This document shows positions 22,649 to 32,372 of a stretch of 32,880 nt of DNA, piece after piece. A program made the position numbers and the translations under genes. The notes beneath the pieces are model-generated. The model was not told the DNA's origin and did no database searches. It worked only from the letters and a program-made list of their open reading frames with translations. How positions within the stretch are numbered: position 1 is the first letter of the stretch; each line of letters opens with the position of its first letter. Source of the stretch: an uncultured Myxococcales bacterium (GTDB lineage Bacteria > Myxococcota_A > UBA9042); contig CALENB010000519.1 of assembly GCA_937910235.1 (NCBI GenBank), positions 1 to 32,880 of the forward strand, written 5' to 3'.

Positions 22649-23782
22649 ATGATTCACCTGACGACCCTAGTCCGAAGCATCCCGGCGCAGCTGGCGCTGA
22701 CGCTGACCCTCGTGGCGACGATGACGCTGAGCGGCTGCATTGTGCAGTCCAACGGCAACACCGGCGTCTTGGAGGTCAACTGGACGCAGAGCGTCTGTAG
22801 CACCGCGAGCACCGTTCGAGTTCGCGCGTCGCGTAACGGCGCCGTGGAATCAGAGGTGACAGGGATTCTCTGCAGCCATGGCACGCAGTCGCTGTTTGTG
22901 ACGCCGGGCACCTACAACGTGACGATCGACGGCGTGGCGAGCAACGGCAGCGTGGTTGGCTCCGCGACGCTGGCGAACCTGACCGTCTTCAGCGGGCAGA
23001 CCACGGCGACCGCCCCCATCTCGCTGACCGGCGGATCGGGCAGCGGCGAAGTGCAACTTCACTGGACGATCGCTGGCGAGTCCGCGAAATTCGGGTGTGC
23101 CAAGGCGGGCTTGACGACCGTCGTCGTCAGTTTGCTCGCACCCACCGGCGGCACCGTGCTCTCCACTGCGCAGACGACCTGCAGTGACGGTGGCATCAAC
23201 CTCACGGGCGTCGCCGCCGGCACCTACCGCCTGCAGCTGGACGGCCGCACGTCCGGTGGCGCCTTGACGTGGGGTAACGCGCAGCCCACCGAGGCCTTCA
23301 CGGTCGCGCCGGGCACGTCGGTCATCGTCCAGAACCCGATCGAACTGGTGGATTTGCGCGCCGCGGTCAGTCTCAACTGGCAGTTCTCCGACAACGCCAC
23401 CTGCAAGTCCAAGAACGTCGATTGGGTGTTGATCGACGTCCGCGACGGCGCCAACAAGATCGTCGTGCCGATGACGGACCCCTACGCCAAGAAGCCCTGC
23501 GACATCGGCCCCAACAGCGAGTACGACTTCCGTGTCATCGACATGCAGTTCGCCAAGCCGACCTGCGCGATTCCGCCGAACGCGAAGGGGCTCATCATCT
23601 GCGGGATCACCGACAAGGCGATCGGCGTCTCGGTGACGACGATTGACGCCTTCACCGGCGCACTGCAGTACGGCGGCTTCATCAAGATCGAGAACATCCC
23701 GGCCGCGCAGCACACGGCCATCACGACGCCGCTTTACCTGTCCCCTTGCAACGACACCAACAACGTCTGCTCCGCACCCTGA
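22649..23782 (+). CDS. Lipoprotein with three Cys-containing beta-sandwich repeats
   Basis: A 377-residue exported lipoprotein. A strong ribosome site (CGAGGAG) precedes the ATG. The signal ends in the lipobox LSGC, Cys30. The mature part consists of three related domains at about residues 39-125, 132-230 and 235-370. Each opens with a strand of the type VNW/LHW/LNW, holds two to four cysteines, and has a central TPGTYNVTIDG or AAGTYRLQLDG strand like carboxypeptidase-regulatory or Ig-like folds. I do not recognise a named family, though many Myxococcota-type genomes carry similar lipoproteins. A strong intrinsic terminator lies 21 bases after the stop. Function unknown; surface or periplasmic structural role is a guess. 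Confidence 0.82.
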   Translation: MIHLTTLVRSIPAQLALTLTLVATMTLSGCIVQSNGNTGVLEVNWTQSVCSTASTVRVRASRNGAVESEVTGILCSHGTQSLFVTPGTYNVTIDGVASNGSVVGSATLANLTVFSGQTTATAPISLTGGSGSGEVQLHWTIAGESAKFGCAKAGLTTVVVSLLAPTGGTVLSTAQTTCSDGGINLTGVAAGTYRLQLDGRTSGGALTWGNAQPTEAFTVAPGTSVIVQNPIELVDLRAAVSLNWQFSDNATCKSKNVDWVLIDVRDGANKIVVPMTDPYAKKPCDIGPNSEYDFRVIDMQFAKPTCAIPPNAKGLIICGITDKAIGVSVTTIDAFTGALQYGGFIKIENIPAAQHTAITTPLYLSPCNDTNNVCSAP

Positions 23783-25893
23783 CGCGGTCCAGAAGGCAGC
23801 ATTGCGGTGTCGCAGGCTTTCAGGCCTGCGGCGCCGCGCTGGTTTTTTTGTCGACGCCGCTGCTGGGAATCGGCGTGACCACATGGCCGACGGTGAGCTG
23901 GGCGGCGTCTGAGCAACGAGACGGCGTCTCCCGTGATCTCCCGGGCGCCGCGACGGCTACCGCTGCGCGCCGCGGCGTCACGACTGGCAACGTCACCGTC
24001 GATGGTCACCGCCGCTCCCGTCTCGCTCGGCGCGAAGCCGCCGACGTGGCTGTGGTGTCGCGACGCGCGCTGCACCAAGAATCACGCGACCTCAGCGACG
24101 CGCTGGATCTGCTTCCCGGCCTGCATGTCGTCCGCGTTGGCGGCCACGGTGCGGCCACACACGTGCAGGTGCGCGGCGCGACGGCTGCCCAAACGCTCGT
24201 CGCGCTCGGGGACATTCCGCTGCGATCGCCGACGGGACGTCCCGTCGATCTGGAGGCGATCCCGGTGCTGGCGCTGGGCAGCATCGAGGTCTGGCGGAGC
24301 CGCGGACCCGCCAGTCTGGGCGACACGCCCATCGGCGGGGTCATTCGTCTGCGGCCCCGGAAAACCGGGCCAGGAGCCGAGGCCCGCGCTGGCTACGGCA
24401 GCTACGGAGCGACCCTCGTCGAGGCGCGCGGCGCCTGGGGCCAGCGCCACGGTGACGGCGGCAGCGCCAGCGCGCGCTGGCTCACCGGCGACGGCGATTT
24501 CCCGTATCTGCACGACGCCGGCACGCCGCTGGACCCAAGCGATGACTACCTGAGGCGGCGGGGCAACAACCGCGTGCGACGACTCAGCGGTCTGCTCCGC
24601 CAACGCCTGCACCTCGGTCGGCGCTGGCGTGTCGGCCTCACTTGGCTGGGCGGCTGGCGATCCCAGGGGCTGCCCGGGCTCGCGGTCGCAGAGGCCACAC
24701 GAGCCAACGCCGAGACGCACCACCACAACGTCATCCTGCGCGGATCCAACAATCGCGCTGGCCACGCCACTGAGGTCTGGGCACACGCCGCGACGGAGCA
24801 GCTCAACGTGCAAGACCGGCTCGGCGAGCTCGGCCCGGTGCAGGCGCGCACGCAGGACGTTCGAGCCGGTGAGCTGGGTGTGCGCTGGCGACTCGGGCGT
24901 GGCGCGATCCGACCACGCGCAGCGCTCGCAGCCCGCCTTGGCGGCATCCGCACGGACGACCAGCTCACCGGACGTGCATCCCCGCAGGCGACGCAGGCCG
25001 CCGCCACGCTCAGCCTCGGCGCAGATCTGCGGGGTGAGCGGTGGCGCGTGTCGCCGACCGTCCGGGCGACGGGCATTGGCAGTCGCCGCTACGAGGACCA
25101 GGGCTGGGTCGCCCATTGGACGACGGTGGACGCGCCGACACGAGCGCTGCTGTCAGGCGAGCTCGGCGGCGCGGTGCATCTGACGCCGCGTTGGGTCGCT
25201 CGGGTCGGGCTTGGGTTGGCCAACCGCGCCCCCACGCTCGTCGAGCTCTTTGGCAACGACGGCACAGTACGACCCGCGCCGCGACTGCGCGACGAGCGAG
25301 CCCTCACGGCGACCTGCGCGTCGGAGCTCCGGCTCGGTCGAGACACCCGTGGCGGCACCCTGGCGATCAGCGGGTTCTTGAGCGACAGGACCGATCTCAT
25401 CCAGCTGGTCCGCGCCGGGCCAGGCCAAGCGATTCACACCAATGTCGGTCACGCCACCGTCGTGGGCGCGGAGGTGGCGACGACAGGTCAGTGGGGCGAT
25501 CACCTGTTTGCGCAGGCCTCCTGGGCGGTGCTGCGAGGCCGCGATCAGAGCGCAGATCCAGCGTATGACGGCAACGCCCTGCCCTTGCGGCCGGCGAGCC
25601 GTTGGCACGGCGCGGTGGCGTTGCGGCGACTGCGCGTGGCCACGCACGTGCATGCCGGCCTTCGTGTGGCGACCCGCTGGCAGGCCGGGAGCTTCGCGGA
25701 TCGGGCCAACCTTGTGGTGATCCCGGCGCGCGCTGAGGTCGACGCGTCGGCGGATTTAACCGCCGGCCACTGGCGCGCGTCTCTGCGACTTGATAACGCT
25801 TTCGATGCTGCGCGGTTCGACAGAGTCGGCCTGCCCCTGCCAGGCCGCGTGTGGATGCTCAACTTGGCGTGGCGGATGGCGGAGAGCTCATGA
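23746..25893 (+). CDS. TonB-dependent outer-membrane receptor (BtuB-like)
   Basis: A 715-codon frame encoding a TonB-dependent transporter. The plug domain (about residues 95-205) shows the family pattern: DALDLLPGLHV, VQVRGA, LVALGDIPL, IEVWRSRGPASLGDTPIGGVI. A beta-barrel of alternating residues fills the rest and ends in RVWMLNLAWRM. The start is uncertain: TTG at 23746 gives a basic, hydrophobic signal peptide but overlaps the lipoprotein gene by 37 bases and has no clear ribosome site; TTG 23848 and GTG 23875 give poor signals. A terminator hairpin lies inside this leader. The stop overlaps the next start (ATGA). With a propeller lipoprotein and a BtuF-like protein downstream, the cargo may be cobalamin or another metal chelate. 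Confidence 0.85.
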   Translation: MQRHQQRLLRTLTRSRRQHCGVAGFQACGAALVFLSTPLLGIGVTTWPTVSWAASEQRDGVSRDLPGAATATAARRGVTTGNVTVDGHRRSRLARREAADVAVVSRRALHQESRDLSDALDLLPGLHVVRVGGHGAATHVQVRGATAAQTLVALGDIPLRSPTGRPVDLEAIPVLALGSIEVWRSRGPASLGDTPIGGVIRLRPRKTGPGAEARAGYGSYGATLVEARGAWGQRHGDGGSASARWLTGDGDFPYLHDAGTPLDPSDDYLRRRGNNRVRRLSGLLRQRLHLGRRWRVGLTWLGGWRSQGLPGLAVAEATRANAETHHHNVILRGSNNRAGHATEVWAHAATEQLNVQDRLGELGPVQARTQDVRAGELGVRWRLGRGAIRPRAALAARLGGIRTDDQLTGRASPQATQAAATLSLGADLRGERWRVSPTVRATGIGSRRYEDQGWVAHWTTVDAPTRALLSGELGGAVHLTPRWVARVGLGLANRAPTLVELFGNDGTVRPAPRLRDERALTATCASELRLGRDTRGGTLAISGFLSDRTDLIQLVRAGPGQAIHTNVGHATVVGAEVATTGQWGDHLFAQASWAVLRGRDQSADPAYDGNALPLRPASRWHGAVALRRLRVATHVHAGLRVATRWQAGSFADRANLVVIPARAEVDASADLTAGHWRASLRLDNAFDAARFDRVGLPLPGRVWMLNLAWRMAESS
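23804..23849 (+). terminator. Intrinsic terminator after the three-repeat lipoprotein gene
   Basis: Bases 23804-23817 pair with 23824-23837 in a 14-bp GC-rich stem (two G-T pairs) with loop TTTCAG. Five bases later comes a run of seven T's (23843-23849). It lies 21 bases after the lipoprotein stop and inside the longest TonB-receptor frame, so it may also act as an attenuator for the uptake operon. Confidence 0.7.
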
Positions 25894-27146
25894 TCCCGGT
25901 GTTTTCGACGGCTAGCGCTACACCACGTATCGCGACGCTGGCAGCGAGCCTGATGCTCCTCAGCCAGTGTGTGAGCGGTTGCGTCGACGACACCCTGCGC
26001 GACGCCAGCGGCCACAAAGGCGCGGCGGCGGTGACCGCAGAGCGCCTCCTTGTGGTGGCGACGGACTACGGCAGCACCAGCCTGTCGTGGGTCGATCCGG
26101 CGACGATGACCGTCTCATCGGCGGGTTTTCTACACTCGGGCACGGCGGTCTCAGCCGCAGGCGCCGCGCTGAGTGGCGACGTGGTACCGGGGAGCGAAGG
26201 CCTCCCGGATGGTCGATTCCCGGTGCTCGATCGCAGCCACAGCTCCGTGCTCTGGGTAGGCGGCGAGACCATCAGCCAATGGCCACTGAGCGACGGTTTC
26301 CAAGCTAATCCACAGGACGTCTGGCGCCACGGCGACGAGATCGCCGTGGTACGGTCGCAGCGCGATCCCACGCCGACCGACAGCCTGCTGAGCGGCGGCG
26401 ACGACGTGTTGCTGCTGAACTTCGACGGCGCGCCGCTGGCCCGCGTCCCGCTTGACGGCGAAGCGACGCTGCCTGGCGGCGTCGCTTTTGCGGGGCGTGG
26501 CGTGCGTCTCGGTGACCGGCTCTGGCTGCCGCTGGCCTCCTTTTCAAAGGACTTCAGCGCGATCGGCGCGGGCCGGCTGGTCGAGGTTGACCTCACGCAG
26601 CGAACCGTCGCGCAACACCTCGCGGTGCCGACCCTGCGTAATTGCACCACGCTGCAGTCCTCCAGCGGCGTGCTGATGGGCACGTGCAGCGGCTTCTTCC
26701 AAGAGAGCGAGACCCAACAGGCGTTGCACTCAGGCGTGTTCCGGCTCGATCCGGCGACGGCCGAGGTCAAGGTGGTGTTGACGGGTGACGCGATTGGCGG
26801 CGTGGTGGGCTTCCCAGTCGCGGTGGATGGCAGCCGGCGCGCCTGGATCGTACGACTCGGGCGACTCAACAACCCTCCGCGACCCGATGAAGTGTGGCGT
26901 CTGGATCCAAACGGCGTCGACCCGCCGGCGCTGGTCTGGCAGGGGAGCCGGGGCTTCGCGATCGGCGGGATCTGGTACGACGCGAGCCGGCGGCGCTTGT
27001 GGGTCAGCGACGCTGGCGACGCGGCCGGAGACCTAGTCGTGCTCGACGTAGGCGCGCCGGGGAGCGCGATGACGCTGGCCGCACGCCTTAGAACACAGCT
27101 CGGCGGGCTACCAGCGGTACATCTCGCGCACAGGCCCGCGCCATGA
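25890..27146 (+). CDS. Beta-propeller (YncE/BtuG-like) lipoprotein
   Basis: A 418-residue exported lipoprotein. The ATG at 25890 overlaps the receptor stop (ATGA) and has GGAG 7 bases upstream, so the start is firm. The signal ends in VSGC (Cys31; LSQC at Cys27 is a second option). The mature protein consists of repeating four-strand units typical of a beta-propeller: WVDPATMTV, NPQDVWRHGDEIAVV, VLLLNFDGAPLARVPL, GRLVEVDLTQRTV, GVFRLDPATAEVKVVL, EVWRLDPNG, LVVLDVG. This matches the YncE/DUF5074 type that includes BtuG of Bacteroides, a surface lipoprotein capping the cobalamin receptor BtuB. The family call is by pattern; the role is inferred from its place between a TonB receptor and a BtuF-like protein. 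Confidence 0.75.
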   Translation: MIPVFSTASATPRIATLAASLMLLSQCVSGCVDDTLRDASGHKGAAAVTAERLLVVATDYGSTSLSWVDPATMTVSSAGFLHSGTAVSAAGAALSGDVVPGSEGLPDGRFPVLDRSHSSVLWVGGETISQWPLSDGFQANPQDVWRHGDEIAVVRSQRDPTPTDSLLSGGDDVLLLNFDGAPLARVPLDGEATLPGGVAFAGRGVRLGDRLWLPLASFSKDFSAIGAGRLVEVDLTQRTVAQHLAVPTLRNCTTLQSSSGVLMGTCSGFFQESETQQALHSGVFRLDPATAEVKVVLTGDAIGGVVGFPVAVDGSRRAWIVRLGRLNNPPRPDEVWRLDPNGVDPPALVWQGSRGFAIGGIWYDASRRRLWVSDAGDAAGDLVVLDVGAPGSAMTLAARLRTQLGGLPAVHLAHRPAP

Positions 27147-28126
27147 GGTGCCCATCACGGTCGCTTGGTGGGATGCCCCGTTTGCCTGGGCTCGTTCAGC
27201 GGCGATTATGTCGGACTGCAGCCGGTTGGGCGGCGCTCTGCGTCCTCGCGACTGCCTGTCAGCGCGAAACACCTCGACCTCCGCTGGCTGCGTCGGCGGA
27301 GCGGCCGGCGCTGCCGAACGCCGCACGACGCATCGTGTCACTGTCACCGGCGCTGACTGAGGTGCTGTTCGCGGTTGGCTGCGGCGCCGCCCTGGTAGCA
27401 CGCGATGGCTGGAGCGATTATCCGCCGGCTGCGCTGAAGGCCCAGAAACTCAGCGGACTTGTGCCGCCGGTCGAGGCCGTCGTGGCCGCCCGTCCAGACC
27501 TCGTGCTCAGCCATTTTCCGCCGCAGCGGCTGCGCGCGGGGCTCGACGCAGCGGGCGTCGTCTGGCGCGGACTGGCGCCGCAGCGGCTCGACGAGGTCGC
27601 CGCCACGTTCAGCGACATCGGGCGACTCTGTGGCCGCCCAGCCGATGGCGCTGCCCTCTCGGCGGCGTGGCAGCAGGCCGTCGCTGACGTTCGCGCTGCG
27701 CGCAAAGACGGCCCCCACCCCAGCGTCTACCTCGAGTTGGACCCGGGTGGCGGGCGGCCGCATACCGTGGGTCGCGGCACATTTCTCGACGACGTCATCC
27801 AGGCCGCCGGCGGCCGCAACGTCATGGCAGATGCGGGTCGCTGGCTACAGGTGTCCACAGAGCAGGTCCTCACGGCGGCGCCAGACGTCATCCTGCTCAC
27901 CGTCGCGGCGCGTGACGCCCCGGCACGCGTCGCGGCGCTGCGCGCCAGGGCCGGTTGGCAGCGCGTCCCTGCGGTGCGGTCTGGCCGCATCTTCACCGTT
28001 GACCCAGACCTGATGAGCCGGCCAGGTCCACGGCTGCTCGTCGGTCTCCGCGCGGTCGCCCGCCACTTGTCGCCGCGTGCGCTGCCGCCCTATCCGGCCC
28101 AGCTGCGCGCGCTCATGGGCCAGTGA
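27143..28126 (+). CDS. BtuF-like ABC-transporter substrate-binding lipoprotein
   Basis: A 327-residue binding protein of the cobalamin/Fe3+-siderophore class (periplasmic-binding type III fold). The ATG overlaps the previous stop (ATGA), indicating coupled translation. The signal ends in ATAC with Cys39 as lipid site. Family marks are RIVSLSPALTEVLFAVG at about 63-79, PPVEAVVAARPDLVL at about 107-121, the long linking helix, GGRNVMAD and PDVILL in the second lobe. No permease or ATPase gene follows in the window; the next gene is an unrelated endopeptidase after 209 bases. Cobalamin is the best guess for cargo, with heme or a siderophore as alternatives. Confidence 0.85.
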   Translation: MRCPSRSLGGMPRLPGLVQRRLCRTAAGWAALCVLATACQRETPRPPLAASAERPALPNAARRIVSLSPALTEVLFAVGCGAALVARDGWSDYPPAALKAQKLSGLVPPVEAVVAARPDLVLSHFPPQRLRAGLDAAGVVWRGLAPQRLDEVAATFSDIGRLCGRPADGAALSAAWQQAVADVRAARKDGPHPSVYLELDPGGGRPHTVGRGTFLDDVIQAAGGRNVMADAGRWLQVSTEQVLTAAPDVILLTVAARDAPARVAALRARAGWQRVPAVRSGRIFTVDPDLMSRPGPRLLVGLRAVARHLSPRALPPYPAQLRALMGQ

Positions 28127-28335
28127 GTCAGGCACGACCGGCCCTGTCGCGGCTCCACAATCAGGACGCTCAATGGCCACCGAACCCGTATTTATGGGGT
28201 CGTAGCGAAGATCCAGATTCGGCGACGCTGAAATAACGCTAGCGCTCTGCCGGACGTCTGCTACTTTGCGCAGCGCAGTGTGCATGGTTGTGCGACCCAC
28301 GCGCGCAGTCGCTCCCTCCTTTGCTCAGGTGTTTC

Positions 28336-29502
28336 ATGGCTCACGTCTTTCGAGGCTGCTTGACCTGCCTCACGATCCTCAGCCTCGGTCTACCGGCGGC
28401 GTTCGCGACGACGCCCACTCACCCCAAATCAGCAGCTCAAAAAACCGTGCGTCGCGTCACCAACGCGACACCACAGTCCACATCGACGGTCATCACGCCT
28501 GATGGCCAGCCGGCGCCGGCGCCAGCCAGCTCCACCCCCCGTGGCGGCGCAGCGACGGGGCCCAACGCCGGACTTCAGGCCGTGCAAGGTGTGGCAGACG
28601 CCGTCTGGGCAGCCCGCACGGCACGACGCCAACACCCGGCGTCCCTCATGGTCACGCGAAAGACGCCCAAGGTCAGCTGGGTGCGCGCCCTCACCCGGTC
28701 GCGCGTGCCGGAAGACGTCACGCACGCGCTCGCGCTCGGCGGGACAGGTGCTCCGATCAAGAGCCGGCGTGCGATCTCCATCCGCACCCAGAAGCTGAAG
28801 GTTGAAGAGTCGGTGCGGTCGGTCGCCTACAAGGCGTGCACCTCGCCGCAGGCGCTCGCCGCCGCGAACGATTTGACGTGGGATCCCGAGGGTACGCCCA
28901 TCCCCGCTGGCAGCGTATTGAAGGTTCCGCTGCGATTTCGTGCGGCCTCCGGCTTCTCCAAGGCGGTCCGTTTGCGCACCGCCCCCGGCGTCCGCGCGTC
29001 GCGCGTTCATCATGCGTGGGGTCGTCCCTATGTCGTGCGCCTGCTCCAAGACGCCTTCCGTGCGGTGCACCAGCGCTGGCCAGATCGCCACCCCTTCATT
29101 GTCCACGACGTCTCGCGTTTCGGCGGCGGCAAGCTGGGTCATCACAAGTCGCACCGCGCGGGTCGGGACATCGACATCGGCTATCCGACCCGAGAGGCCA
29201 CGCGCAAGGAGTGGGGTCGCCCGGCGCTGGAGACCATCGACTACGCGCGCCTGTGGTTTGTCATCGATCAGCTTGAGCGGACTGGCTACGTCGCCGCGAT
29301 CTACATGAGTCCGCGCATTCAGCGGAAGCTGTACGATCACGCTGTCGCGCAAGGCGCGGCGCTCGCCCGGGTGGAGACGCTCTTTCAGTATCCGTGTGCG
29401 AAGGGCGCCAAACGCACGTTGATTCGCCACGCCAAGGGCCATCGCGACCACATGCACATTCGTTTTGCGAGCCCGAAGGACCTGCCCGAGCTTGAGTCCT
29501 AA
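28336..29502 (+). CDS. LysM plus MepA-like (M74) murein endopeptidase, exported
   Basis: A 388-residue peptidoglycan hydrolase. The start at 28336 has CAGGTG upstream and gives a signal peptide of about 24 residues (ending AAFA). A Pro/Thr-rich linker leads to a LysM-like module at about 150-198 (VEESVRSVAYKACTSPQALAA and AGSVLKVP), which would bind cell wall. The catalytic part has the M74 zinc pattern: His273 and Asp280 in SHRAGRDID, and HRDHMH at 369-374. E. coli MepA cleaves D-Ala-meso-DAP cross-links; the same reaction is expected here. The 209 bases upstream carry no promoter I would defend. It is followed by the caspase-like lipoprotein gene, which has its own promoter. Confidence 0.88.
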   Translation: MAHVFRGCLTCLTILSLGLPAAFATTPTHPKSAAQKTVRRVTNATPQSTSTVITPDGQPAPAPASSTPRGGAATGPNAGLQAVQGVADAVWAARTARRQHPASLMVTRKTPKVSWVRALTRSRVPEDVTHALALGGTGAPIKSRRAISIRTQKLKVEESVRSVAYKACTSPQALAAANDLTWDPEGTPIPAGSVLKVPLRFRAASGFSKAVRLRTAPGVRASRVHHAWGRPYVVRLLQDAFRAVHQRWPDRHPFIVHDVSRFGGGKLGHHKSHRAGRDIDIGYPTREATRKEWGRPALETIDYARLWFVIDQLERTGYVAAIYMSPRIQRKLYDHAVAQGAALARVETLFQYPCAKGAKRTLIRHAKGHRDHMHIRFASPKDLPELES

Positions 29503-29729: not shown

Positions 29730-32372
29730 ATGCGTCGACTCTCTCTCGCCACCGTCCGCCGCGTTCGCCTGCTCACCGCCGCGCTGTCTGTCAGCGCGCT
29801 GGCTGCCGGCGCATTGGCCGCCGGCACAATCGGGCTCGCAGGCTGTGGATCCGACCCCGCGGCGACGGATCCTGGCTTCACGATCCCAGATACGACCGGC
29901 GGCGGCGGCGGCACCGGCGACGGCACGACCGCTGGTGTCGGCGACGGCACGAGCGTCGGCGCAGATGGCACGACGGCTGGCGGCGACAGCGGTATGGGTG
30001 CCGGCTCCGACGGAACAGCCACGCGCAACCCGGACACCGGCGCGACGCAACCGCCCATCGCCAAGCACATTGGCTACAAGAGCCAAGAGCTACGCATCCG
30101 CATCGTCGGCCCGAGCGGCCGACGGCATACGGTCGTATCAGGCGGCGTCGTCGACATCGCAGGGGTGCTCTTCGGCAACGCGGACGAGATCGGCTGGCAG
30201 CACAGCAACGGCTCGGGCGGCAAGGCCTACGGCGCGCCTTTCTTTCAGACTGGCAAGGTCGAGCTGACGCCTGGTGACAACGACATCACCGTCACGGCGA
30301 AGAGAGGCGACGCGATCGCGACCGACCACATCACGATCACCTACAATCCGGTGTTTCAGTTCTCGGACCGGATTCGCGTCGAGCCTCGCGTCATCAAGGT
30401 CGGCAAGGCGACCAACGTGCACGCCATCGTCAGCCTCGGCAAGACGACCAACTTCATCGCCGGCAGCCTGAAGGTGTTTCGCACTGACAACGCAGGCAAC
30501 CAGCTCAAGAACTTCGGACCGATGGTCGATGACGGCAACCTCTCGGCGTCGGGGGACGAGATCAAGGGCGACGGGAACTACTCGCAGAAGTTCAGTATCA
30601 ACGACAGCAAGCCGGGGACGGTGCGCATCCGCGCGTCGATCCTGTTCAAGGTTGGCGCGAAGCAGTACGCCGCGTTCACGGACGTCGCCGAGATCGACAT
30701 CGTGGAGAACATCGCCGTGAGCGACTGCGACGGCATGAAAGCGCTGCTAGAGAAGGCGAAAGGCGCCGCAAAAAGCGCGACGGGCTCGGCCGCAGGGCAG
30801 ACCGCGTCGCTCGACCTCCTCAAGGCGAGCGCGTTGGTCGACTCCGCAGGCAAGGCCGCAGCTGGCGGCGACGGGGTCTGGGTCCGCTTCAAGAATGGCA
30901 TGCTGGCCGCGGTGAACTTGAACCCGGCAGGAACACGCGGTGGCGAGCCGCGCTACGACAGCGTCGAGCAGCTCGGCCTCAGCAATCGGGCGCTCAGCTC
31001 GGTGCGTGTCGAGTCGAAACGCGCGCTCATGTTGGATCCATTCCGCAGTGAGTTTGGCGAGAACGAGATCGGCACCGGCGCGAAGACCATCGCGCAGACG
31101 GCCTGCCCCGCCTACGAGCTCGAGAGTGGCGGCGCGCTGCCAGGTGACAAGGCGACGCTGAATCACTACCGGCACTTCTACCAGTACGGCATCGTGGCCA
31201 TGGCCACCCACGGCGATGCGCTGTTTGGCGAGCTGGATGCGGCTCGACGCGAGGAATACGGCTTTTCAGCGACCGGCAGCCAGGAGATCTTGTGGACCGG
31301 TCACGCCATCCAGTGCAGCTACTTCAAGCAAGCCGCGACGAACCAGACGTGCTCCGAGAAGAAGGCGTGCGGGCCTGAGAGCGAGTGTTTTCTCAACGCG
31401 ACGGGCGGCAACGGCGTCTGTGTAGACCACCTGACCGCCGATTTGCGCCGCGGCCGTGTGATCCTCGGCGCCGACGGTGTGTACGGCATCACGCCAGCGT
31501 TCATCCCACGCCACGCCGCCCGGACCTTTCCCCGCAGCCTGTTCTACCTCGGCGCGTGCCGCTCGCTCTTCAGCGGCAGCATGGCCGCCGAGCTGTTCGC
31601 AGCCGGCGCCGCCGCGGTAGTGGGCTACGACGGCAACGTCACCAACGAGTTCGCGTCCAAATGGGGGAAGACCTTCATCCAGAACGTCATCGGGCAGAAG
31701 AAGCTCTCAGGCGTCGCGCACGTCCAGATCGAGGACGCCGGGCACCCGGGCAGCTTCTTTCGGCTCGTCGGCGCTCAGAACCTCGATGCGTACTTCAGCG
31801 ACCTGCTCAACCCGTCCTGGGAGGCTGGCAATGTCACCGGCTGGATCAAGTCGGGCGACGGTCGTGTCATCGCCAAGCTCGGCAGCACGGTGCCCGTCGG
31901 CGGCAAGTTCATGGGCATCCTCTCGACAGGGCTCGGCTACACCTCCCAGACCGGCGAGCTGCGCCAGCGGTTCTGCGTGCAGCCCGGCCGCAAGACGCTC
32001 TCGTTCTGGTGGAAGTTCTACAGCGAGGAGTTCAAGGAGTTCTGCGGCAGCCAGTACCAGGACGCTTTCCGCGCCGAGCTCGTCGCCGCCGCAGGCAAGA
32101 AGACCATCATCAACGTGAAGGTCGACGACCTCTGCAACAAGGGCTGCGAGGGCAAGGGCGGGAGCACGTGCGGAGGGCAGTACAAGGGGCTCACCAAGGC
32201 CGACGTCTCCTTTGATCAGGGCGACGTCTACATGACGCCGTGGGTCAAGGCGGAGGTCGACGTAGGGCCCTTCGCCGGCAACGGCAACGTGAACCTGCGG
32301 CTCTTCACCACTGACGTCGGCGACTCCGTCTACGATACGGCCATTCTTGTCGACAAGATCGACATCCAGTAG
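29730..32372 (+). CDS. Exported lipoprotein with a caspase-superfamily (clan CD) domain
   Basis: An 880-residue lipoprotein. The signal ends in LAGC (Cys39), followed by a Gly/Asp/Thr-rich linker (about 54-100). Two Ig-like beta domains occupy about 117-205 and 208-325. The central domain (about 330-690) has clan CD marks: a hydrophobic strand ending in His494-Gly (VAMATHGD), then FYLGACRS with Cys610, then AAELFAAGAAAVVGYDG, the helix-strand unit seen in caspases, gingipains and CHAT proteases. Between His and Cys lies a Cys-rich insert (Cys 529, 541, 547, 553, 564). The C-terminal 180 residues form a jelly-roll-like domain (FCVQPG, LSFWWKFYSEEF, ILVDKIDI). No activity is proven; clan CD is my reading of the His/Cys pattern. 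It would act at the cell surface or in the periplasm. Confidence 0.72.
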   Translation: MRRLSLATVRRVRLLTAALSVSALAAGALAAGTIGLAGCGSDPAATDPGFTIPDTTGGGGGTGDGTTAGVGDGTSVGADGTTAGGDSGMGAGSDGTATRNPDTGATQPPIAKHIGYKSQELRIRIVGPSGRRHTVVSGGVVDIAGVLFGNADEIGWQHSNGSGGKAYGAPFFQTGKVELTPGDNDITVTAKRGDAIATDHITITYNPVFQFSDRIRVEPRVIKVGKATNVHAIVSLGKTTNFIAGSLKVFRTDNAGNQLKNFGPMVDDGNLSASGDEIKGDGNYSQKFSINDSKPGTVRIRASILFKVGAKQYAAFTDVAEIDIVENIAVSDCDGMKALLEKAKGAAKSATGSAAGQTASLDLLKASALVDSAGKAAAGGDGVWVRFKNGMLAAVNLNPAGTRGGEPRYDSVEQLGLSNRALSSVRVESKRALMLDPFRSEFGENEIGTGAKTIAQTACPAYELESGGALPGDKATLNHYRHFYQYGIVAMATHGDALFGELDAARREEYGFSATGSQEILWTGHAIQCSYFKQAATNQTCSEKKACGPESECFLNATGGNGVCVDHLTADLRRGRVILGADGVYGITPAFIPRHAARTFPRSLFYLGACRSLFSGSMAAELFAAGAAAVVGYDGNVTNEFASKWGKTFIQNVIGQKKLSGVAHVQIEDAGHPGSFFRLVGAQNLDAYFSDLLNPSWEAGNVTGWIKSGDGRVIAKLGSTVPVGGKFMGILSTGLGYTSQTGELRQRFCVQPGRKTLSFWWKFYSEEFKEFCGSQYQDAFRAELVAAAGKKTIINVKVDDLCNKGCEGKGGSTCGGQYKGLTKADVSFDQGDVYMTPWVKAEVDVGPFAGNGNVNLRLFTTDVGDSVYDTAILVDKIDIQ

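Follow-up and report, generated by a model that had tools for sequence, protein, structure and literature searches.

The described systems closest to the protein considered here are proteases and protease-like proteins of clan CD. CHAT proteins (PF12770), represented by SAVED-CHAT (8tl0), TPR-CHAT/Craspase and DdvA (8rw5), have a caspase-like fold with ATHG-like and LSAC-like motifs. In Bacteroidales, fragipain and DpnB are C11 lipoprotein proteases that are present on the cell surface and activate other secreted proteins (PMC11169675). Self-cleavage after Lys or Arg activates the clan CD enzymes PmC11 and clostripain (PMC4850288), and the self-cleavage site of C11 lies between the His and the Cys. 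Gingipains (C25; Kgp, 4rbm) combine the catalytic fold with an Ig-type domain and a cleaved-adhesin jelly roll and carry a type IX secretion tail, and separase (C50) is a eukaryotic, cytoplasmic protein without Ig or jelly-roll domains.

The window, i.e. the whole stretch of 32,880 nucleotides analysed from an uncultured Myxococcales bacterium, encodes a protein that shares the caspase-like fold with CHAT and adds to it a predicted lipid anchor, two Ig domains in front, a Cys-rich insert and a jelly roll behind (Table 1). Clan CD and a lipid anchor are common to this protein and the Bacteroidales C11 lipoproteins, but it has no C11 sequence match and its candidate self-cleavage site lies before the core. 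Its Ig domains precede the catalytic domain, unlike those of gingipains, and where gingipains have a type IX secretion tail it has a predicted lipid anchor. The top fold score is to separase, which gives no sequence match and lacks the flanking domains found here. The first-pass annotation had proposed a clan CD lipoprotein with a His494/Cys610 dyad, and this core claim is supported by fold, by matches and by invariance of the dyad; its coordinates and residue numbers all proved correct when checked in the sequence. It had also contrasted a lipid-anchored form outside the membrane with the mostly cytoplasmic caspase-like proteases of defence or signalling systems; for such a form fragipain, as a surface lipoprotein, is a precedent (PMC11169675). 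As candidate roles it had named predation, maturation and surface sorting. The family is a new family-level variant, with lipid-anchored clan CD proteases already known in Bacteroidales, and a literature search turned up no paper on exported CHAT lipoproteins. The best explanation overall, considered rather probable, is that of an exported clan CD cysteine endopeptidase lipoprotein which would activate itself and process envelope or surface proteins.

Table 1. Features of the lipoprotein gene and its surroundings; positions with a locus label (L) refer to homologous loci, all others to the window.
Feature	Position	Strand	Basis
Murein endopeptidase-like gene (M74), upstream	28288..29502	+	Pfam PF03411, E 2.4e-8
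ORF, 880 aa, predicted lipoprotein with caspase-fold domain	29730..32372	+	ATG 29730, stop 32372; homologues
Signal peptide and lipobox LAGC; codon of predicted lipidated Cys39 at 29844-29846	29730..29846	+	sequence
Low-complexity linker (G/T/D/S), residues 40-111	29847..30062	+	sequence
Two Ig-like domains, residues ~119-208 and ~216-325	30084..30704	+	model, fold matches
N-terminal alpha/beta lobe of protease module, residues 326-402	30705..30935	+	domain model
Variable disordered loop with R403-G404 at its head	30936..31016	+	low pLDDT, residues 405-421
R403 codon, candidate autocleavage site	30936-30938	+	[RK][GAS] conservation
Caspase-fold core, residues 430-692	31017..31805	+	model, fold comparison
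Predicted catalytic His494 codon	31209..31211	+	homologue alignment
Cys-rich insert (Cys529, 541, 547, 553, 564)	31314..31421	+	sequence
Predicted catalytic Cys610 codon	31557..31559	+	homologue alignment
C-terminal jelly roll, carbohydrate-binding-module type, residues 691-880	31800..32369	+	VIA-align
Dyad-less paralogue	L114:8335-10974	+
Dyad-less paralogue	L119:1290-3950	+
Dyad-less paralogue	L036, frame 1, behind active copy
Dyad-less paralogue	L039
Large TIG lipoprotein 3' of B-type copy	L184:3705-6683	-
Large TIG lipoprotein 3' of B-type copy	L097:8526-11357 (and 16 other loci)
Small lipoprotein-like gene	L127:8157-8564
Small lipoprotein-like gene	L129:4346-4747
Small lipoprotein-like gene	L131:7321-7725
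Small lipoprotein-like gene	L128:7373-7831
Small lipoprotein-like gene	L121:7756-8220

An AlphaFold model of residues 112-880 was of high confidence (pLDDT 92.1, pTM 0.93), and in its fold comparison the N-terminal part resembled Ig-like tandems. The protease domain was not listed in the fold search with this 769-residue model, which was dominated by Ig and jelly-roll matches, and the domain was therefore folded alone (residues 325-692; pLDDT 92.6, pTM 0.91). The best Foldseek matches of the isolated domain were DdvA (CHAT) and SAVED-CHAT, at E 2-4e-3. With VIA-align, the highest score was to separase (5fby; Z 15.3 over 179 residues, 3.2 A), followed by SAVED-CHAT (Z 12.9), DdvA (12.1), gingipain K (11.6), metacaspase (10.3), TPR-CHAT (10.1) and caspases (8-9). 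The top VIA-align rows were all clan CD and a non-caspase fold was absent among the 50 matches listed. Thus, the structure prediction that had been suggested for comparison with CHAT, C14 and C25 domains returned a caspase-type alpha/beta sandwich with clan CD at the top, and the modelled core of the protein is almost certainly a caspase fold. Residues 691-880 gave Z 13-14 to CBM61/CBM16 and a porphyran CBM and Z 10-11 to the cleaved-adhesin domains of gingipain Kgp with VIA-align; NF038133 (choice_anch_L) matched residues 748-874 at E 6e-5 in NCBIfam, below the cut-off. The two Ig-like domains and the jelly roll of the earlier annotation were therefore borne out by fold comparison. No relative came up when the protein or its profiles were searched against the sequences of solved structures.

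The window protein matched no Pfam family at E up to 1, including Peptidase C25 (PF01364) and CHAT (PF12770); with the CHAT model the best-scoring relative (L128) stayed at 22.5 bits, below the cut-off of 24. C11, C14 and C50 gave no Pfam match to the window protein and were absent from the family list too, and none of the protease models in Pfam or NCBIfam matches the family. In profile alignment with hhalign, the branch of the family without the Cys-rich insert aligned with CHAT domains of related genomes at 94.6% probability (E 7e-8), with the His and Cys motifs of both in register, and the whole family reached 42% over the Cys motif; against C25 the values were 1.3% for the whole family and 20.8% for the insert-less branch, with the dyad unaligned. 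On profile comparison CHAT is probably the nearest of the known families, and, in view of the profile alignments and the Pfam score below cut-off, the appropriate label is CHAT-like and clan CD, not Pfam CHAT.

In the domain model, His494 (context VAMATHGD) follows the strand 488-492 and Cys610 (context FYLGACRS), 116 residues further on, follows the strand 604-608, so that model and alignment agree on the clan CD arrangement of a His-then-Cys dyad at strand ends. Both residues were unchanged in 73/73 aligned homologues, distant ones included, as the earlier annotation had expected. Among the domain sequences, the invariance extended to 87 of 91; the remaining four carry R/S, Q/S, R/P and G/R in place of His/Cys. 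These four paralogues form one clade in a quick tree with SH-aLRT support (SH-aLRT 99), and three of the four dyad-less genes come immediately 3' of an active copy in the same orientation, the fourth being on a short contig. As both residues are gone together and in one clade, the four copies are interpreted as pseudoenzymes and not as a refutation, and joint loss of the dyad in a divergent tandem paralogue reads as a pseudoenzyme pattern. It is highly likely, on the model and the alignment, that His494 and Cys610 constitute an active dyad.

Residues 405-421 are the sole low-confidence stretch of the large model, and this loop, which precedes the core, varies in length and sequence among homologues. 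Nevertheless, an [RK][GAS] motif is present at the head of the loop in 85/85 complete active copies and in 0/4 dead copies; the column of R403 holds Arg in 76 copies and Lys in 6. The absence from the dead copies is weak evidence alone, because the chance of [RK][GAS] in a 24-residue stretch is ~40% by composition, and its loss together with the dyad counts as one observation because the four dead paralogues represent a single evolutionary event. A second basic cluster, directly before the first core strand, is retained in the dead paralogues. By analogy with PmC11 and clostripain, R403 may be a site of autocleavage, a suggestion that conservation supports well and to which slightly less than an even chance is given; R403 could instead be structural. 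Two proposals for residues that determine specificity were set aside: D571 and R576 are both kept by the dead paralogues, and an acidic residue behind the His-Gly as S1 determinant is unspecific, with Gly at this position in active sister sequences.

The five cysteines between the dyad residues had been described as an insert of EGF-like spacing that would gate the substrate or be stabilised by disulphides. The insert is present and its five cysteines are conserved within the class, but no EGF family was matched; the nearest matches were Dickkopf and lustrin (E 0.04-0.06), and EGF identity was rejected, as was a likeness to hirudin (E 1.6-8 in the structure sequence search, chance level). Copies from Photobacterium, an Alteromonadaceae isolate and Ca. 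Schekmanbacteria have none of the cysteines and the Ca. Brocadia copy has a single one. These copies from outside the class keep the dyad at a His-Cys spacing of 82-91, so that the dyad does not need the insert and a general substrate-gating role is unlikely. The spacing of the insert resembles C-x(3-5)-C-x5-C-x(4-10)-C modules in other lipoproteins of this genome. One of these, the TIG-domain lipoprotein beside the second copy of the family in the genome, has five short C-x3-C-x5-C-x5-C-type repeats, so that modules of this kind are a common surface component here. The insert is inferred to be a class-specific, disulphide-rich lineage add-on outside the catalytic machinery.

Of 53 genomes searched, comprising that of the window and those of its relatives, 49 contained a match to the protein, which, together with the constancy of the dyad, makes the observation more than chance. 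In a phylum-wide sample of 284 genomes, long matches fell within the window's class, with little outside it beyond the C-terminal domain and a few partial matches. A scan of GTDB species genomes returned 80 loci, including Photobacterium, the Alteromonadaceae isolate, Ca. Brocadia and Ca. Schekmanbacteria; in the order of one Photobacterium, 1/296 genomes had a match. The family is therefore near-universal in one class of Myxococcota, frequently with at least two paralogues, and sporadic elsewhere. The family is also carried by two metagenome bins from freshwater (L070, L097) whose records are titled Klebsiella pneumoniae, apparently in error. In the quick tree, two fully supported orthologous groups are distinguished within the window's family, A-type (21 rows, including the window) and B-type (19 rows), and the second copy in the window's genome, of the B-type (L184:6819-9530), is 42% identical. 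The window protein was unmatched in phages and the Photobacterium homologue in plasmids, and spread by either was dropped as an explanation. Membership of a defence system was likewise dropped, as no PADLOC model matched the window protein, its paralogue, the distant homologues or their partners.

The N-terminus of the window protein is a signal peptide that ends in a lipobox Cys, LAGC39, behind a hydrophobic stretch, as originally annotated. Of the 82 homologues with sufficient upstream sequence, 73 have a lipobox-like N-terminus; the exceptions are mostly truncated or frame-shifted contigs, and the copies of Ca. Brocadia and Ca. Schekmanbacteria resemble ordinary secreted proteins. From these sequence features the window protein is in all probability a lipoprotein. 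In Myxococcus xanthus, Lys at +2 is a mark of inner-membrane lipoproteins and Ala at +7 of those in the matrix (PMC3222651). With Gly at +2 and Ala at +7, the outer membrane or matrix is the likely location under the M. xanthus rules, and exposure at the surface, as against the periplasmic face, is reasonably probable.

The genes around the two types of copy differ. A-type copies are often near M74 and other housekeeping genes, and the M74 cluster is upstream in 10 A-type loci, a context association with the protease gene in which a functional link is putative. In the window, a cluster further upstream (23746-28126, +) comprises genes for a TonB-dependent receptor (23746-25893) and a periplasmic binding protein (27143-28126) together with an unassigned ORF, which look like metal, siderophore or cobalamin uptake. 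No downstream partner is conserved in the A-type. In 17 B-type loci and in L077, the protease gene is succeeded on the same strand by a gene for a large lipoprotein with a TIG domain, mostly at a distance of 4-90 nt. In the genome of the window, the second gene 3' of the B-type copy (L184:2433-3695, -) encodes a secreted protein with a MYXO-CTERM-like tail, consisting of a Gly-Gly-Cys motif, a hydrophobic stretch and an Arg-rich end. A small lipoprotein-like gene (133-154 aa) lies 3' of the copies in Photobacterium (3/4), Ca. Brocadia and Ca. Schekmanbacteria. The downstream lipoprotein genes are candidate substrates, scaffolds or inhibitors. The gene neighbourhoods single out no particular substrate.

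In the proposed mechanism, the exported lipoprotein endopeptidase, with the CHAT group nearest, would be sorted after lipidation to the outer membrane or matrix, consistent with a +2 residue that is neither Asp nor Lys, the long flexible linker and the CBM-type domain. It would be synthesised as a zymogen and self-cleave behind R403, where the disordered loop opens, freeing the catalytic core from the anchored Ig and alpha/beta part; since this proposed cleavage follows an Arg, a preference for Arg or Lys at P1 would be expected. The activated enzyme would then process other envelope or surface proteins, as a resident function of the lineage, although this processing role is tentative and given somewhat less than an even chance. 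A fuller version, in which a class-wide exported zymogen is self-cut at R403-G404 and partly controlled by its dead tandem paralogues, by analogy with caspase-8 and c-FLIP but extracellular, is unlikely in its entirety.

Alternatively, each copy might act with the lipoprotein of the next gene downstream, processing it or being held by it. The TIG lipoproteins of the B-type loci, the small lipoprotein-like genes of the distant copies and the dead paralogues behind active copies at three loci would all suit such partner-specific maturation, but no partner of this kind accompanies the A-type copy in the window, which is followed by a nucleotidyltransferase gene, and of the small genes the three from Photobacterium are related whereas those of other phyla are barely similar, so that this is a doubtful general account. 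Transduction of an envelope-stress or cell-contact signal, with ligand binding by the Ig and CBM-type domains releasing a CHAT-like activity, is also improbable. It draws on ligand-binding-type domains at both sides of the protease and on DdvA, a CHAT-bearing membrane anti-sigma factor of M. xanthus, among the closest structures, the CHAT domain of which is placed outside the membrane by topology inference only. However, the conserved neighbours of A-type copies include neither a sigma nor an anti-sigma factor nor a kinase, and a lipoprotein has no cytoplasmic part.

Other Myxococcota are predators, and the fold scores of the jelly roll would allow the CBM-type domain to hold prey or particle polysaccharide while the protease feeds on proteins. 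Near-universal vertical inheritance, with one or two clear orthologue groups per genome, is better suited to housekeeping, and a digestive or predatory exoprotease is accordingly regarded as improbable too. The peptidase function of the members is itself a prediction, and fold and dyad might be retained for a different reaction or for binding alone. The dyad is nevertheless constant across Myxococcota, gammaproteobacteria, Planctomycetota and Schekmanbacteria, and its joint loss in the dead paralogues fits catalysis, making a non-proteolytic function very improbable. A self-activating endopeptidase that processes envelope or surface proteins is the reading preferred here.

The family is retained almost universally in a poorly known class and escapes detection by every protease model of Pfam and NCBIfam. 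Studies of bacterial CHAT-type proteases mostly concern defence systems inside the cell, and this family would place a CHAT-like core outside the envelope. Handles on an extracytoplasmic caspase-fold protease in Myxococcota may come from the candidate site of self-cleavage, from the tandem paralogues that have lost the dyad and from the lipoproteins encoded alongside.
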